This document shows, piece after piece, positions 49,026 through 60,285 of a stretch of 64,000 bases of DNA. Each line of letters opens with the position of its first letter. Position 1 is the stretch's first letter. This DNA comes from Sialis fuliginosa. Its lineage: Eukaryota > Arthropoda > Insecta > Megaloptera > Sialidae. A program made the position numbers and the translations under genes. Under the pieces are notes generated by a model. The model was given only the letters and a program-made list of their open reading frames with translations, was not told the origin of the DNA and searched no databases. The stretch is from NCBI GenBank assembly GCA_961205875.1, contig OY540812.1:5022001-5086000 (forward strand). The letters run 5' to 3'.

Positions 49026-52000
49026 TCATGTTTCAAATAATCTTAAATCAAGTTTTATCAAAACTTCACCTGATTCAACTTGGTGTAAAATCATTTTCTT
49101 TTTTACGGGACCTTGTGAAGATTGCGTTTCATTCAATATATCCCAAACTTTTACATCTGCACGACCAAGGAATTCTAAAACAAGATTTTTAACAATGAAT
49201 CCATTGTTATTTTAAATGAAAGGTGAATAAATAAAACAATAAATATACATACGATTTGGTGAATATAAACACTTTTCTAGAACGATAAGTTCCAATACGT
49301 CAGTTTCAATATTATATACTTGAAACTGCATAGTAGCGTTCCATTCAAATACTGCATTAGCTAATGGACCACTGTTTTGATTTGATTGTTGTGAATGCTG
49401 TTGACGAATTACAGCATTTGTTACACTTGTAGTTTGTACTTGACCTGCCATTTTCAGTTTACAAAAAACGTTTTCGCAAACTGTTCTCCCTAAAATTAAA
49501 TAATGATGTAGATAATACTTAAATTAATTCAAATCTACTTGAAATAAAAATTCTTAAAGTTATATAAAAGAAAAAGTAAATAACAGAAATACAAATATTA
49601 TTATTAACAATTTAATTTGAACAGATCAGATAGGAATATATTTAAAAATGAATAGTGTTTTAATTCCATTCAATTAAGAACCAGAATTATTTTATTAATT
49701 AATTCAGAGATTTGTAGCAGCCCAATTTTTAAATTACTTCTCTATGTAATTTTAATTTTTTTTTAAAGTTTGCATTAAAACAATCATTACTGCTTTACTC
49801 TATTGGTTCTTCAAACCAACGGTTAATTTTATCTATTTGCTAAGTTAATTTTTTTAAATAATTTATTTATTAAGAAAAAAAAGCAATAATGCTTCAGCTC
49901 AGTTACACTTCACTTCAAAGCTCTGAATTAATTGACATGTTTTTAAATTTACCTTCAGTATTAACAATTTCTTCTGCATTAATCACTTTTACAAGAAGTA
50001 TACCTTGAGCACAAATTTTATTGACACTGAAACCTGCATCATGCAATATTAAGTAATATTATAAAGAATCTTACCGGTAATACGTTGAAAGCGAGCTCCC
50101 TGCTTAACGTTCACGAAAAGCCTTCCTTGAGATGCTACACGTGAAACATCTACGAACACAGACCAAAGCAAAGACATCACAGTTACCCGTAAAACATATA
50201 TGTACAATTGAACAATACTATATTTAAAAGATATATTTATAAATGAGGAGCAGCAGAACAAAACCGGATAAATCCATTTTTACAAATTTTACAGGAGAGG
50301 TCAAAATGTAACTACCCTATTTTCGTGTACTTTTTTAAACTTTTGAGTATGGTTATAGGTAAGCACAGTGGAGATTTTTGAATACCCAAATTTTGAACTA
50401 ACGTCTTTGCACAAGTTAAAAGATAGATAACTTTTAAAAAGTTAGATATCTGGTTTTGTTCCACTACAAGTTGGATTTATCTACATTTGAACCACAGAGA
50501 CATCATAATCTATAGTGACACAAAATTGTAAATGAAAGAAAACAATAATAATTAAACATTTTAATCAATAAGGCACATTTTGGCAAAGAAATTTTAATGT
50601 AATAATCGCACACAAACTTTTTCTGTCTTTTTATACTGGATTTATTCTGAGACACGTTTTTAAACGGGTTTTAGCAATATTTGATCCGTGATCTTTGGTG
50701 ATAGTTGAAAATACCGAATCAAAAAAATAAGTCACCTCGATTCAAAATGGATTTATCAAGTTTTCTTCTGCTGCTCCTCAAATATGATTACATTATTAGG
50801 ATAGCAATTTTCAAAACAAGTATATTTTATTTATATCAATAAACTACTAATGAAAGCCAAAAAATTATCAAAAATATTTATTAAAAAAAAGAGGATTAAA
50901 AACATGGAGAATAAATACAAAATGTTGTTAACATGTTAACAAAATAATACGCATTAACAGAAGAATAAAGTATAAAAATAATTTAAATGCAACATATACC
51001 AAGCATTTATAAAACAATCGACCAAGCGCCAAGTATTTTAGAGTATTAGTCAAATGTTATTTATTATACAAGCTAAGTATGGAAACAAGTGTTATTGTTT
51101 TAAATAATAAAAGGATTTATAAAAAAAAAGTTAAATAAATCACGGACGAACTAGCTGATTTGATTGACATAAAAAAGCATTTTGACATTACAAAATGGCA
51201 TCAGCATATCCCTGATTTCATAAAATAGTTAATAATATAAAAAAAGAAGCAAGTCTACTCAAATAATTCAATATAAAATAATACCACCTATTAACTTTAC
51301 TATTGAATTATTAATTAAACAGATTAAATTTAAAAATCAAGAAAAGTTTTATTTCTGAAAAAATTAAATGCATGAATATGATAAAATAAATGTTTTATGT
51401 TTTCCTTATAAATAAGCCAGAACCGATGTAAATGACTTACTTGATCTTTGCCGATATAAATTTTTATTGTTAAAATGATCAAAATTTATTATTGCGTCTG
51501 TAATTCTCTTTAACCAAAGAGTACATTCGTTGGCTGTTGGTGTAAGTAAATAATAAATTTTATTTAATGATTTCAACTTGAGCGTACGATTTGAATCTAC
51601 TTCATTATCAAATGAATCTTTAAGTAAAGCGATTTCATTCAAAAATATTGGCTGTAAGAAATAGATAATAATCTGTATTATTGTTGCTAATATTATATCA
51701 CAAACGTACCTGTTTGTAAATTTTAAAACTTATATTACGAGACTTTTCAAAGGAAAATTTGTAACCATTTGAAAATGGACGTGACGGTTGAGCCAATAAC
51801 AAAAAATCACTCATTAGAAATCCAACCAACTCCTTACCACTCTTTACCTTAAAAATATGTGTATTTTTATATAATGGTTTTTAATATATTAACTATAAAA
51901 AATAACTCACTTTTGTTAGATGACCATAATGCAAAAACTTCCGTGTACACCCGCCATTAGTTTCAGAATTAAATATTATCTGTAGACCTTCTAAATTTAC

Positions 52001-55000
52001 ATTCTTCTGAATCCAATTTAATCTTTCGGTATTTTCTGTAAACCGAACACCTTCATTTATTTGTTTACAAAATCTATCTGATTTTTGTAACGCTTGCGTC
52101 AAATACGGGTGATCTGTAAGTATTTAATTATATAATATTTATTATATAAAAAGTTGATATTTAGGTTCTTACCTTGATGATTGGTATTTGTATTTTCTAA
52201 AATTTTACTTATAATTAGTGGATATTTAGTAATCCGTTGCATTGGTTTTATTAAGAATGATGATAAAGGCATTCCTTTGGTTTTTGGATTAGTCTGACAT
52301 TTTCTAACCGTGTTTTGGAAAGCAGTTGAGTTTTCAGTTAAAGATTGAAGGAATGAAGCAGCACTTAATTGACTACTACAAAACTGTATATACGGAGTCA
52401 TTTGAGGTATCTAAAATAATAATTATATCATTTCAATACAGAGAGGGGAACAATATTTATAAAAAAATATAGGTTAGTTTTGTATTCAAGTGACAACGTA
52501 TAAAAATAGGTTAAACAACTTACATGACGACAAATGATATCTCCTATTAACTCAACGTTACCGTAACTATCATCATATCTATTCTTTAAATCTTCATGAA
52601 AATTATAATTGCATTGTAGAATTTCTTGCCAATTGAGAAATATTTTAGATACTTGTTCTGAAGAAAGCACTCTGCTTTCAATTAAAGGTTGTTCGAAAAC
52701 TTCATGAACAATTGACATATCCTCAATATAAGCTTTTTCAGATGAAATCAATTCCCATATATATTCCTGTCGCTTTTTTTCTTGTGGACTTAACTGTGCT
52801 ATTATTTAAAAAAAATTGTAATTGTATTATCAAGGAATAATTAAATAAATAATTCAAAGTTATGAGATTCATTCATATATTTATACATTAAATTAAAATG
52901 TTTCTAATATCAGGCAATTTTATAATAGCTTCATTTTATTGATCAGTATTGATTGAAAAGAACAGGTCCAAAGATATATTTAATTATCGTAAAATAAATG
53001 GACTTCATTTTAACATCCATCAAAAAAACAGCTTAATTAAGAATGTATGTATGTATTATAAATATGTAACGAATAATAAACTAATTACCAACTTAAGATA
53101 TTAGTAAATGCATTTTTAGTTCATTAAACTAAATATATATATAAAGTATGGGACCCATTCTTTCCAAACCAGCTTTTTGAAACTGCATATAATTAAACAA
53201 TAATAATCTAATAATAGTAACATAAATATAACAACATAAAATACACAATTTAATAAATAATAATAAATCCGTTATTTCACAATTTGCTGTGCTGTATATA
53301 TTATAAATTATAAATTATAAATGTGTATAAATATAATATAACAAGTAAATCAATTACAGTTAAATGTATTTAAAAAAAAATCAATTTTACGTATATTATA
53401 ACATAAGTAGTAGATAGTAAAGTAAAAATGAAAATAAACATTTTATTTAAATATATTGGAGAAAATCAATCAAAATCACAATATATTATTTTATAACAAA
53501 CAATTTATCTTTGATTTGTTAATATATGAAACATATATTAATTTTAATATAATATCTAGTTCGTAATGCATATAACGAGTCGGTAAAAAAAATCTTGCGT
53601 TTGTTGACATAGAACTATGGAACTATTTATCACAAAAATTTCAGATTAATCTTAAAATGTTTGCTGTATGTTCTAGTATTACATATTCAAATTTTAAATC
53701 TTTCCAACAAATCGTTTTTGGTAGTTATAGTTTTTTAAGTAACGAATAACAAAAACACCGAGTTTTCTAGGCCGATGTTAATTTTTCAATTAGAGTCCAT
53801 AAAGTAGCTTCTCGATCATTTAAACTTAAATGTACTTAATTTCTGCTTTTGGAATAAATTTAAGACATTGGTGTATTAAAAAAGCAAATTAACAATGAAA
53901 TAAAAGATTAATTACTCACGTATTTAAATAAACATTAGTAAATTATAACTGCAATAATTACTGTCAAAATCTTAAATGATTTTCAATTTTAATGTTAAAC
54001 CTGACTGTATAGCAACACTTTGATACTAATCTGAAGTTTTTTAGATTTGAAGATCCAAAGTATTGTCGTTGAACAGAACATTTTTTTTCCATCTAGTTTT
54101 ATATACTTTTTCTTAAGATAATTATTACTGTAGTTTAAATAAGTGATATGAGGTTTGTCTGATATTTCCTAAATCTATAGTACCTTTTAATTAATAACAT
54201 AAAATGTGTTACTATCTCCATTTCCATATAGGAAAAAATCACATACAAGAACAGAGAATAATAATAGGGATTGCAACCATAGGATTATCTTAATTAAGCT
54301 GAATATTCTATATTATATAGCAGTAGTATTTATAAATATAACTTCACTAATTATCAAATCAATGGAAACATTATTTAAAAATACAATAACGAAATTGAGA
54401 TATTTTTAATTTAAATGAAAGATTGGAAAAATTATTTGGGATTTCAATCCCTAAAACATATGTTCTAGTTTAAACGAATATACATTTTAATTAATACTAT
54501 TTAACCAGACAAAACCCTTATAACAATACTTAATCTTAAAGAGATTTAACATCTTATATAATTTTACATTAATAAATATTAGTTTGTTTTCAAGCATAAC
54601 AATTGTTTTTTTCGTCTAAGACAAAAACAAAACACACAATACTATGTAATTTGACCTACTTACATAGATAGTACATTATACAACTATAATATTATAGAGA
54701 GATAAAGAGAGTATGTATCAAACAAAATATTAGATGCAGTGTGCAGTTTGGAGAGAAGGGTCCCGTCGCATTCCTGGAGATAAATTAAATCATTATTACT
54801 TACTGTCAGAGAAAATATCTTACAATATCATAAATGACCCAGTATGTGCAACGTAATTCATTTGTGTTTTAGTTAGGTTATAATTGTTTAGAAAGTGGGG
54901 TTATGTATGCTTATTATAAATCAAGTAACCAGATTTAAACAAAAAATAAATCTAAATGTAAAACAAACAGTTAATTAATTAAATTAATTATTTGTTCTTA

Positions 55001-58000
55001 ATACCAAAAATTGAATTTTGAACTAATGGTAAGTAACATCCTACTAATTTAGATAATATTGAATAAAACCATCTTCAAAAAATCTGGTCACTTTATATAA
55101 ATAATATTTTATTCACTTACATTGCAGAGGACCGACATAATTGCTTGGAAATAATCCGGACACTCCGTTGAGTTCACCACGCCACCACGACGGTTCATCA
55201 CGAGCTGTTACACTAATAATATCATCTTTTATAAATGTTAATTCGTCTGCATTTTGTGCAGTATATGGGAATATTGCTATCACTTTATCTGGAAAATAAT
55301 GCATAGTTAAAACAATAATTAATTTTCACCAAAAACAAAAACTTACCAAGTACAACTTCTTGCTGATCTACTCGACTGGCCGATACAGGTGTGTTTCGTC
55401 CACTACTACGGCCGCTACTTTCAAGTATTTTGACGTACGTTGCCGGGAACCAACCGACCTGTCTTTTTCTACCTTTTGCTTGTAGTTCTCCTTCCCACCA
55501 ACCGGAATCAGATTTCTTACGGATCATTATTAACTGACCTCGGGATAAAGTCAATTGTTCAGGACTTGTTGCTTGATATGGAGCAATCACAGTTGCAATT
55601 TCAGGTTTTTTAGATGATTTTATTGTCTGTTAATAAAAAAGTTATAAAAACATTTGCTTTCCATAAAATATTTTAAGTAAGTTTTTTCAATTTACACAAT
55701 AAACAAGATCCGCTTGTTGTATAAAACTATATTTTTTAAATAAGAAAACTGGATTGATAAAAAATTGTTATAAAGTTGTCATAGTTAGTAATTTTTTTCT
55801 TTTTCACTTCAGTAATCAAATACTTTTTAACATCATAACTACTACGAGCACTAGTTTAAGGTTACATATCAACATGATTCATACTGTACAATGAACAATA
55901 GAACTTTATAATCCTAGAGACAAAACTTACATTAGTTAGAAAGCACAAACACATAGCAGCAAATAACAAACCTGTGTGTTAGAAGCCATAGCGGCAAAGT
56001 CAGGCGATTTATCAGGGGTTTTCTGTTTTTCATTAATAGCTGTAATTTCTGCATCATTAGCAGACTGAGTGAAATCTGATTGCATTTCATTTTGGGCATT
56101 TTTCTCCATGGTCGCAGTGATCGCTTGACCGTTTGGTGTCTTTATTTCTGTGTTAGTATTATTTGTACTTTCATTTGTCACTGCATTGTTCTATAAATAA
56201 TTTTTAAAACATGGATATGTTCAATATTTTCTTATTTTTACCAATTTTTTTTACGTATTGAAGTAAGTAAATTTTTAAATAAAATTATAAAAATGCAAAT
56301 AAATTTTATTTAAAGAAAAACTGATTTTAAATGACAAATATAAAATAAAATAATTTATTTGGTTAGAAATGGACAATCACAAAAATATAACAAAACAAAA
56401 TAATTATATACAACTAAAAAACAACACAGAAGCAAGAATAGTTGCAAAAAATATTTAAAAACTTACGTTTTCAGTAGCTACCTCTGCTTTTTGAACATAA
56501 TTCGACGGGAATATACCAACATTTTCACCAATTTTACCTGTCCACCAATCACCTTCTTTCTTTACTACAATTATTACATCACCTAAAATTAAAATAAATC
56601 AATCAAATTTTCACTTAAAACTATATTTTTATTTAAACAAAAATTAAGTGCGAGAATCTACCTGCATTGAAACTCAAATCTCCTTGTTCAATAGATTGGT
56701 ACGGATAACAAGCTACATAATAATCGGATATGTCTTCTGCAGGCGGCACATCGTACCTTTGCTCATTTAATTCTACATTTCCGTTTTGTTCAGCTGGTTG
56801 TGAATTGTCTGAAGCTATTTCTGGTACCTCAGCAATACCTCTGAAAGTTTTTATTTTTCATATGTAACAAACATTATACGCAACTATAAAGTGTAGATTA
56901 TGTTCAACAAAGGATATGCTAACTAATTTATTATTTATTGTCAACAATGTCAAGACTATTCAAAAATCAACTGTCTTTTTAAGGTTGTCTGTTTAAAAAA
57001 AAAGTGCTTGAAATGGGTAAAATAAGTAACGTTTAAATTGTTTTCTTTAATATACATACTCTAAAGGTCTTGAAGCTGTAAATCCATCATCAATCACGTT
57101 TGTTGGAACTTCAGAGACAGGTTCAGCTGCAGCAATAGGTGATGTTCCTGTTGTATCAACAGGTTCAGCATATGATTGTGGAAACCAACCCATATGACCT
57201 CTTATTTCACCTGCTAACCAACCAGGTTCTCCATTTTGTTCTGCTGGTACCTGTTAAAAGTATACAAAAAAAAAATCATGAATGTGCCATTTATTGAGAA
57301 ATATATTACCATTATAGCGTCTCCAGGTTGGAATGATATCTCGTCTTGATTTCTTGCGACAAATTCATAAAGAGCCCTATATTTGACCATGCCGGCCGCA
57401 GGAGGCTCTTGTGCAGCTGGTGCGCCATTATCTACAGGCCAATCTGTAGATGGCCATTCAGCAGTATCCTTCCATGTGGATGAATAGTCGAGAGAAGATG
57501 TTTTATTCATTCCTTTCATTTGAAGTACCTAACAAAACATTGCTCATTCAAGATAAGTTAATTATTATTATTTTTAATTAACTTACTTTAGTTTTCTTTT
57601 CTTCATATTCAACATACAGTGTTTCACAATCACTAACTAATACAGTAAGATGAGTTGTTAATTCATTGATTTGAATATTATTGTTTTCAATATCGCTCAT
57701 TTTACCATTTATCTGTTCTTCCATGTTAGATAATTTCTCCTAAAATTCCAATCGACATATTATATACAAAATTAAATATTAAAATGTATGTATATACCTA
57801 CCTTCAAATTTTTGATAGCGATTTCTTTATTATCGAATGCTGCTTGAGTTTCTGCATTGTCATTTTGTTTATTCTTAGCATCGAGTTTAATTTTCTCTTG
57901 GCTTAATGCAATGAGACGTGCATTTTGATCTTTCAATTTGTTTTTAAGCTGTGACAGTTCTTGCATGTGAGTATCTCTAGTCACACGCATACCATCAATC

Positions 58001-60285
58001 GTTGTTTTAACATTGGAAACACCAACTCTTGTATCACAAATTTTTTGAGATAATTCTTTAACCTAAATAAAAAATGTTATTACATAAAATATATTATTAT
58101 CAACTGATTTTAATAAATTAGATTATTACCTGATCGGTCAATGTGTTAAGTTCTATTGTAAGACTTTGGTTTCTTGCTTTTAATCTTAAAACATTCTCTT
58201 GGGCACGTTGACGTTGCTGCTGTAATTCTTGTGAACGTTGTTTCTCCCATTCTAACTGTCGTTGTCTTTCCATTTCCCTATAAAAATGTTTACTCAATTT
58301 AGATTCTAAAAACAAATTATAATGTACTCATTATACTTGACAAAATAATTTTTACCTGCGAGCAGCATCACGTTGTTCTTGCTGTCTCTTTCGCTCTTCT
58401 TCCAGTTGGCGCTCCTTCTCCATCTGTTCTTGCAATTGTTGTTGTAATTCTTGTTGGCGACGTCGCTCTTGTTCTGCACGAGCACGCTCTCTTCGTTCTT
58501 GTTCTTCACGCTCTTTTCTTTCTCGAGCTTCAGCTTCTGCTCTTTGTGCTTCTAACAAAGCACGACGGCGTCTTTCTAATTCAGCTTGACCTTTTTCAAA
58601 GTTTTCTTTTCGTTTATCTTCAAATGTCGCTGAAAAAAGATTGATAGTTACTGTGCAAGATACAAACACTTCAATATTAAATTGTGTTTGCAATTGTAAA
58701 AGTTTTATGGTTAAGTGGTTTATTTTTAAATGGCTATCAAAACACATGTAATTAAATAAATATAATCACTTTGAAGTAGACTAGAAGCAGGATCAGCATC
58801 AGCCGGTTGGGAACCCTGGCTAGAAATAGAACCATGGCGGGAACCAACTGTAGTAGCCCCTGTTGCACTACTAATTGAAGATCTTCTAAAAGCAGGCGGA
58901 ATCATTTCTAGAGATAACTTAGCGGGTGGCATTTTGCCAATTGTTGCTTGTTCACACAAATACATTGCTAAAACAAATTCATCACAACCCAAACGGCCAT
59001 CTGAATCCATATCAGATAAAGCCCTGAAAAAGTAATTATTAGTTTTTCATTCATTCTATTTTTACTTTATTATTAAAACACATACCAAATTTGAGCTAAA
59101 ATGGCTTGGGGTAATTTTGATTGAAGCATTAAATTTCTGGCTTGTACACCGCTTAAATACCCAGTTCTCATCCGATCTGTTGTATTGAACAACTGTGTAT
59201 ATTTTAATTTGGCTTGGTGAGGAATAGCCCAATCTTGTTGGCTAAAAAAAATAACAATAGTATTTAAAAATATATTACAATTACACTACTCAAAATGATT
59301 TATAAATAAAAATTCCCTTACGCAGGAGAATCTAATGAAGAAATACTCTTTGCTTGTGGAGTTCCAGCTGCACTACTGCCACCTGAAGCTGTAGCAATTG
59401 CCGCTATAGGAGCTGAGTAATTTAATGAACCCGGTATTACAGGAGCTGTTTGCGGCAACGACTGAGATAGTGATACATTCTGTATCAAACTAGGCCCTCC
59501 AACAGGTTGTATTAATCCAGCTCCAGATATTATATTTCCGGCAGATGGAGCAGCTGCTTGTATTAGAGGTTGTGATATAGGAATGGGTGCAGTCTGTACT
59601 AAATTTGAATGCATTGGTTGAATCAAGTTTGGTGCGTTTGGTTTCATCAATGGAGCTAATGGCTGTTGTTGTATAGGTTGGACTAAGGAGCCAATGCCAG
59701 GAATCAGGGGCTGTGCTACTGGTGCTGCTTGAGATGCAATTAGAGGAGAACTTGTCACTAAAGGTGGCGCTGCTTTAGGAGGTTGTGGTCGCATAGGTGC
59801 ACTTGTATTTTGTGCAGCAGAGTTTAACATTTGTGCTGGTAAGGGAGGAATGGCAGGAGGTACTTGAGAATTTTTTAATGAATTTAGAAGGGAAGGTGGT
59901 AGTGTTTTGGGTATTTCAAAACCTCTTAACTTCAAATTTATTAATTTACATGCAATCGAAAACTCATTAATATCCATTTTACCATCAGCATCTGTGTCTG
60001 ATAAAGACCTAAAAGATACCAAAATAACACTAATTTCAACAGTTCTTAATATGGTGTATAAATAAAAACTTACCAAATTTGACCAAGTATTAATGGTGGA
60101 AGCTGACTTTGTAACATAAAGCCTTTTGCTTGCTCTCCTGTTACAATACCATTAATTGGTCGGAGAGATTTAAACTGATCTTCATATCGGGCTCTTTCTC
60201 TAGGCTGTACAACCCAAGGGTCATTTTGTCCCATTCCAGGTGCTCCTTGCACAGGACTTGAACCCAAGCTTGTTGCTGCCGACAT
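49026..60285 (-). CDS. Dap160: Intersectin / Dap160, long form (EH-EH-CC-4xSH3-DH-PH-C2)
   Basis: Coding exons on the minus strand: 60074-60285, 59322-60008, 59086-59241, 58770-59023, 58356-58629, 58130-58277, 57802-58062, 57587-57739, 57310-57528, 57060-57250, 56662-56840, 56467-56582, 55972-56190, 55347-55626, 55121-55288, 52524-52798, 52173-52410, 51911-52113, 51710-51847, 51441-51651, then 50075-50149 or 49953-50033, 49253-49489, 49026-49174. About 1680 residues. It is an endocytic scaffold that binds NPF proteins and dynamin and, in the long form, activates Cdc42. EH1 about 20-112 (EF loop [12 protein letters not shown]), EH2 about 300-400, coiled coil 437-715, SH3 domains near 757-815, 893-950, 1031-1090 and 1117-1172 (no SH3B, as in fly), DH 1173-1400 ([21 protein letters not shown]), PH, then C2 ending LDLRLFET. 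The acceptor at 60294-60295 indicates a 5' untranslated intron. Confidence 0.96.
49953..50033 (-). CDS. Dap160: Intersectin alternative exon 21b (first C2 strand)
   Basis: An 81-nt exon, phase 1 at both ends, encoding [14 protein letters not shown]. It aligns with the same segment of the C2 domain as the upstream 75-nt exon. Acceptor atgcag, donor gtaaat. See the entry for 50075-50149; the two are probably alternatives. Confidence 0.75.
50075..50149 (-). CDS. Dap160: Intersectin alternative exon 21a (first C2 strand)
   Basis: A 75-nt exon, phase 1 at both ends, encoding [13 protein letters not shown]. It is closest to the vertebrate GRLMVNVVEG block. Acceptor ttcgtag, donor gtaaga. Only 41 bases separate it from exon 21b, far less than any other intron measured in this window (minimum 58). 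Confidence 0.8.
50243..50779. mobile_element. MITE with GAGGAGCAGCAGAA ends in intersectin intron 20
   Basis: About 537 bp. The left end gaggagcagcagaacaaaac, continuing to cggataaatccat, is mirrored at the right by atggatttatcaag followed by ttttcttctgctgctcctc. Non-coding. It lies in the 1.3-kb intron between the PH and C2 exons. Confidence 0.78.
52799..55120. other. Intersectin intron 15 (SH3 to DH), 2.3 kb
   Basis: Very AT-rich and without exon-like sequence. It is the longest intron of the gene and separates the EH/SH3 half from the DH-PH-C2 half. Its first bases contain an in-frame stop and a polyadenylation signal (see 55108-55115). Confidence 0.6.
55108..55115 (-). terminator. Intronic stop and AATAAA, possible short intersectin isoform
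   Basis: Past the donor of exon 15 the frame reads two codons (TGT AAG) and then TGA, which overlaps aataaa directly. An unspliced transcript would end after the fourth SH3 domain, like the short intersectin of other animals. A signal this close to the donor would also leave little room before cleavage, and AT-rich DNA gives AATAAA often. Confidence 0.35.

Follow-up and report, generated by a model that had tools for sequence, protein, structure and literature searches.

The dysferlin variant C2Av1 arises from an alternative first exon, and the C2A and C2Av1 domains were reportedly studied by Fuson in 2014. In C2Av1, positively charged residues form salt bridges with the calcium-binding residues and prevent calcium binding (PMC9333456). 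Human OGDH exons 4a and 4b have mapped distant branch points that lie 25-41 nt from the donor (PMC7969005), and 57 human clusters of mutually exclusive exons (9%) have a donor-to-branch distance below 50 nt (PMC5740500). More than 45% of the introns in the exon 6 cluster of beetle Dscam1 are shorter than 50 bp (PMC8042237). Efficient human splicing wants about 50 nt from the donor to the branch site (PMC6692369). Human introns of 43 and 49 nt that carry a G-rich enhancer are spliced, and for a 41-nt human candidate (ENSA) the listing gives expression but not splicing (PMC4463651). In C. elegans, exon 5B of egl-15 is repressed by RBFOX proteins at a UGCAUG in the intron that precedes it (PMC3585155).

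We rebuilt an intersectin coding region on the minus strand of the window (the whole 64,000-nt stretch of DNA that was analysed), from the ATG at 60285 to the stop at 49026. Intersectin connects endocytosis with actin. The predicted protein has 1680 aa with exon A and 1682 aa with exon B, each with a single terminal stop. Pfam profiles identified two EH, four SH3, RhoGEF, PH, and C2 domains in the 1682-aa form, and the coiled coil was judged by sequence. The resulting order, EH-EH-coiled coil-SH3s-DH-PH-C2, is that of long-form intersectin. The DH-PH-C2 part has intersectin 2 (3jzy) as its top match (E = 6.5e-103, residues 21-510 of 510), and the E-value is about 6e-103 whichever of the two exons is included. 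The four SH3 domains fit the count stated for several insect intersectins (PMC3645719). The same review lists one intersectin with a GEF extension in the pea aphid, and its table gives the GEF-bearing long form for pea aphid and honeybee and none for D. melanogaster and C. elegans (PMC3645719); the role of the C2 region therefore cannot be studied in either of the two main invertebrate models. Intersectin-1/Dap160 was among the up-regulated genes in a study of Aphis gossypii (PMC9408958).

If the donor that follows the last SH3 domain is read through (55133-55107, minus strand), the frame continues with GPLQCK to a TGA overlapping an AATAAA. A short form of intersectin through intronic polyadenylation is thus possible, resembling the vertebrate split into short and long forms. 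An ADP-ribosylglycohydrolase exon (PF03747, 62570-62001, minus) lies upstream on the same strand as intersectin. A stretch of RNase PH domain (PF01138) is found at 13809-13591 (minus) and presumably belongs to an exosome subunit.

Table 1. Features of the intersectin locus, in window coordinates.
Feature	Coordinates	Strand	Description
Whole long-form intersectin coding region	49026..60285	-	24 coding exons, counting A and B
Upstream exon	51441..51651	-	PH domain end; exits in phase 1
Exon A	50075..50149	-	75 nt, phase 1-1, 25 residues + split G; PH-C2 linker, C2 strand 1, diverged basic half of loop 1
Spacer	50034..50074	-	41 nt; donor of A GTAAGA, acceptor of B TGCAG
TGCATG (UGCAUG, RBFOX motif)	50040..50045	-	nt 30-35 of the spacer, 6 nt upstream of exon B
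Exon B	49953..50033	-	81 nt, phase 1-1, 27 residues + split G; nearer ITSN2 strand 1 and loop 1
Downstream exon C	49253..49489	-	remainder of loop 1 and most of C2; without ITSN2 loop-3 acidic residues
Last coding exon D	49026..49174	-	C2 end and stop

Exons A and B sit between the PH exon and the main C2 exon (exon C, Table 1). They are adjacent, enter and leave in matching phase, are similar in length, and have GT/AG borders. The coordinates, the lengths of 75 and 81 nt, the 1-1 phases, the GT/AG borders, and the 41-nt spacer given in the first-pass annotation all proved exact. A alone, B alone, A with B, and neither exon are all open and in frame, so the reading frame does not enforce the choice. 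We rejected policing by frameshift or nonsense-mediated decay, as exons of 75 and 81 nt leave the combination of A and B open. A U2/U12-incompatible pair was also rejected upon comparison with the U12 consensus, the donors being GTAAGA and GTAAAT and the introns GT-AG.

Alignments to ITSN2 and to the Pfam C2 profile indicate that each exon encodes the linker and, of the C2 domain, strand 1 with the first half of loop 1. The earlier proposal that both encode the same part of the domain is borne out by strand 1 in each, but it missed that B, rather than A, is closer to ITSN2, and likewise the UGCAUG of the spacer, the weakness of the acceptors, and the difference in charge between the exons. Its further statement that vertebrates have the segment once agrees with the one chain checked (intersectin 2, 3jzy). 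The two exons thus appear homologous for one part of the protein, with modest similarity between them. Their local BLOSUM62 score of 32 was matched by 12 of 20,000 shuffles of A and tops the scores of 1302 phase-1 pseudo-exons in the window once B itself is set aside, the next reaching 27. Against the ITSN2 fragment alone, B scores 30, a value reached by 146 of 20,000 shuffles, and A scores 24, reached by 912 of 20,000. Unrelated pseudo-exons of the window reach 31-32 there, so A and B do not stand out and this score proves nothing by itself. B looks nearer to the ancestral exon, with A keeping the strand and having a diverged loop. A search of the genome for exon A returned itself as the single match, with no donor paralogue at that sensitivity. 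Viral and prokaryote contigs, scanned once each, yielded no relative, as expected.

Apart from the spacer, the 22 coding introns of the gene measure 58, 58, 58, 59, 59, 62, 62, 63, 65, 67, 78, 78, 79, 80, 113, 140, 219, 276, 345, 463, 1291, and 2322 nt, and the first-pass figure of at least 58 nt for the other introns holds for 22 of 22. Outside intersectin, the shortest homology-anchored intron read from sequence has 55 nt (locus L038). Exon-gap estimates from hand-picked neighbouring C2 and kinase profile matches (n = 17; 3 C2, 14 kinase) span 52-291 nt; the 52 reads 55 by sequence, and the other 16 are 57-291 nt. A mechanical survey of GT-AG introns between open flanks in 209 kb yielded 22 candidates; among those whose flanks are clearly coding, the shortest have 57-58 nt. 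This survey is not noise-free, as reversed-sequence decoys gave six candidates, and its unanchored candidates of 44 and 55 nt were judged spurious. The length of the spacer (41 nt against at least 58 in the gene and 55 elsewhere) falls below the working minimum of this organism, as in a sterically restricted pair.

The spacer contains a single YTRAY-type branch-site candidate, with its A at spacer nucleotide 26. Branch-motif scores from the short introns of the gene itself carried too much noise to set a minimum donor-to-branch distance, and a geometric limit was used instead. A branch site 12 nt from the B acceptor would sit 29 nt from the A donor, and for any branch site that keeps this distance or more from the acceptor, the room after the donor would be at most about 29 nt. 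Splicing of the human introns of 43 and 49 nt speaks against a strict block, though they carry a G-rich enhancer (PMC4463651) and the spacer has no GG. The room in the spacer is less than in any other intron of the gene, which would disfavour joining of A to B. We consider such joining likely, not certain, to be blocked, and the block by the short spacer is the best candidate for enforcing exclusivity.

The spacer also carries the sole TGCATG or GCATG among 6136 intronic nt of intersectin. Window-wide, TGCATG occurs at chance frequency (28 sites, both strands counted, where 25 are expected), a rate that predicts about 0.008 for the spacer. Seven motifs were counted and this one was noticed after the fact; as a regulatory element it is suggestive only. 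The genome contains an RBFOX-like RRM stretch, found with a 78-residue human RRM query. Over 34 of these residues the identity is 88%, and the other seven matches reach 32-36%. The first half of the RRM is unmatched, and one TAG in the row was taken for an intron border. By the worm precedent, an RBFOX protein is predicted to repress B.

Exclusivity could instead be enforced mainly by a repressor or by competing RNA structure and not by the length of the spacer. The position of the UGCAUG just before B would suit a repressor, and beetle Dscam1 exon 6 pairs introns of less than 50 bp with selector structures (PMC8042237). Neither of two local folds, however, exceeded shuffled sequences in stability (z = 0.74 and 0.46; local pairing only), and two exons alone need no selector array. 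We regard this alternative, which is compatible with a short-spacer block, as rather doubtful though the strongest of the rivals.

Exon A could also be a decaying or chance pseudo-exon beside a constitutive B. Its acceptor scores lowest in the gene (-4.8) on a profile trained on intersectin's own 22 introns, and the tract before it is UG-rich rather than U-rich (TGTGT at 50160). CELF binding to this tract is a guess. The B acceptor is second lowest at 2.0, a small gap below the other 21 (2.5-11.3). Both exons had been described as having usable splice sites, which stands for their GT/AG borders but has to be qualified for their acceptors. Exon A also adds little to the domain signal. The Pfam C2 profile gives 32.4 bits with B, 28.5 with A, 31.8 with both, and 27.5 with neither, where the match begins at profile position 48; the gain from A over the no-exon form is only 1.0 bit.

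Nor is similarity of this size rare between neighbouring pseudo-exons. Among 1362 same-phase pairs, 26 (A-B included) reach the score of 31 that A-B has in this control, as do 8 of 176 pairs with a spacer below 55 nt. The 1362 exclude, out of 1451, 89 pairs from locus L035, which contains a zinc-finger-like array. Locus L038 holds two open pseudo-exons (7325-7023, minus), 45 nt apart, with a similarity of 35 that is possibly chance.

A further point for a pseudo-exon is a MITE-like element (50245-50779, minus) about 95 nt upstream of exon A, whose nearness could influence recognition of the exon. Its inverted ends have 50-nt arms that are 84% complementary, and at least 39 other sites in the genome match it with 74-86% identity, among the 40 of 285 candidates scored.

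Several properties of exon A are nevertheless those of a coding exon. It has an open frame in the right phase and the right place, and its GRLFVNV resembles GRLMVHV of ITSN2. Its donor (CCG/GTAAGA) scores an ordinary 7.0 in a gene range of 1.9-10.4. The codon score of A is coding-like at 0.52, with 13 of 292 control pseudo-exons as high. B scores 0.27, with 45 of 292 as high, and the median is 0.63 over 54 windows of the training exons themselves. The 292 controls were drawn from mostly non-coding parts of the window. On balance a pseudo-exon seems unlikely, and exon A is probably a used exon. It is place, phase, open frame, and similarity taken together that make the case for the pair. Joint or independent cassette use (A with B, or neither) fits the four open combinations and the human introns of 43 nt that splice (PMC4463651), but we consider it highly improbable, as the spacer is 14 nt shorter than the shortest anchored intron and the two forms would respectively duplicate and delete strand 1.

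The probable explanation as a whole is a tandem-duplicated, mutually exclusive exon pair of long-form intersectin. Each exon would be spliced singly, from the PH exon to A or B and on to the shared C2 exon. As proposed earlier, a single exon completes a full C2 domain and both together would duplicate strand 1. The choice would likely be set by the weak acceptors together with the UGCAUG close upstream of B. On the model of egl-15, binding of an RBFOX protein to this motif would repress B, and A would be included. Mutual exclusion is what we infer from this arrangement.

The outcome would be a swap of strand 1 and half of loop 1 that takes the net charge of the exon peptide from -1 (B) to +5 (A). 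It may trade a positively charged edge of the domain for a near-neutral one. A switch in calcium binding, raised in the first-pass annotation, was rejected. Calcium-binding C2 domains have acidic ligands in loops 1 and 3, the ligand columns of the loops being our assumption. Exon C, shared by both forms, has a different 10-residue stretch in place of the ITSN2 loop-3 stretch FDRDQFSPDD, and the acidic residues are absent; neither isoform should thus coordinate calcium there. We prefer an electrostatic change that does not depend on calcium, and the effect would most likely concern a calcium-independent membrane or protein contact adjoining the DH-PH exchange-factor unit. Exon C (49489-49253, minus) also carries about 18 residues beyond ITSN2, placed between C2 strands.

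A more elaborate scheme makes the spacer both barrier and switch, being unspliceable and having an RBFOX site over the B acceptor. RBFOX-expressing cells (nerve, muscle) would then make the +5 C2 edge and others the -1 edge, giving electrostatic, calcium-independent control over docking of the Cdc42 exchange unit. We offer this scheme as speculation that is unlikely to hold.

Open-access literature searches with partial coverage found no paper on the intersectin A/B pair. The accessible portions of a paper on insect nAChR alpha6 (PMC1919356) and of one on mutually exclusive exons in 15 insects (PMC3303723) contain nothing on intersectin. Both exons may already be present in annotated insect transcripts. 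We conclude that A and B form a candidate mutually exclusive pair that is well placed and has a strikingly short spacer, of a known kind at a location we did not find described. If true, the switchable C2 edge would open a new way to approach tissue-specific functions of intersectin, and the minimum-intron rule in insects could be tested on a compact spacer of 41 nt.

Within the intersectin family, vertebrates have short and long forms and minor EH, SH3, and DH variants, whereas the text consulted lists no exon swap in C2 (PMC3645719). The pair resembles OGDH 4a/4b and the human mutually exclusive clusters in having adjacent alternatives, of which here, too, one would be used, with a donor-to-branch distance below about 50 nt (PMC7969005, PMC5740500). 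OGDH differs in that its exclusivity is held by mapped branch points (PMC7969005); here the whole spacer has 41 nt. The exon 6 cluster of beetle Dscam1 likewise has very short spacers and consists of insect mutually exclusive exons, as A and B are predicted to be, but it has many exons with docking and selector RNA structures (PMC8042237), compared with two exons and no local structure signal here. C. elegans egl-15 5A/5B and unc-32 7a/7b share with this candidate pair a nearby UGCAUG, and in egl-15 the motif is upstream of the repressed exon; regulator binding is demonstrated in the worm (PMC3585155), whereas this locus offers the motif and an RBFOX-like gene fragment. In function, dysferlin differs in that the intersectin C2 domain described here lacks the loop-3 acidic residues in either form. 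Its C2A and C2Av1 are the nearest analogue; there alternate splicing alters one C2 domain (PMC9333456), as it would here.
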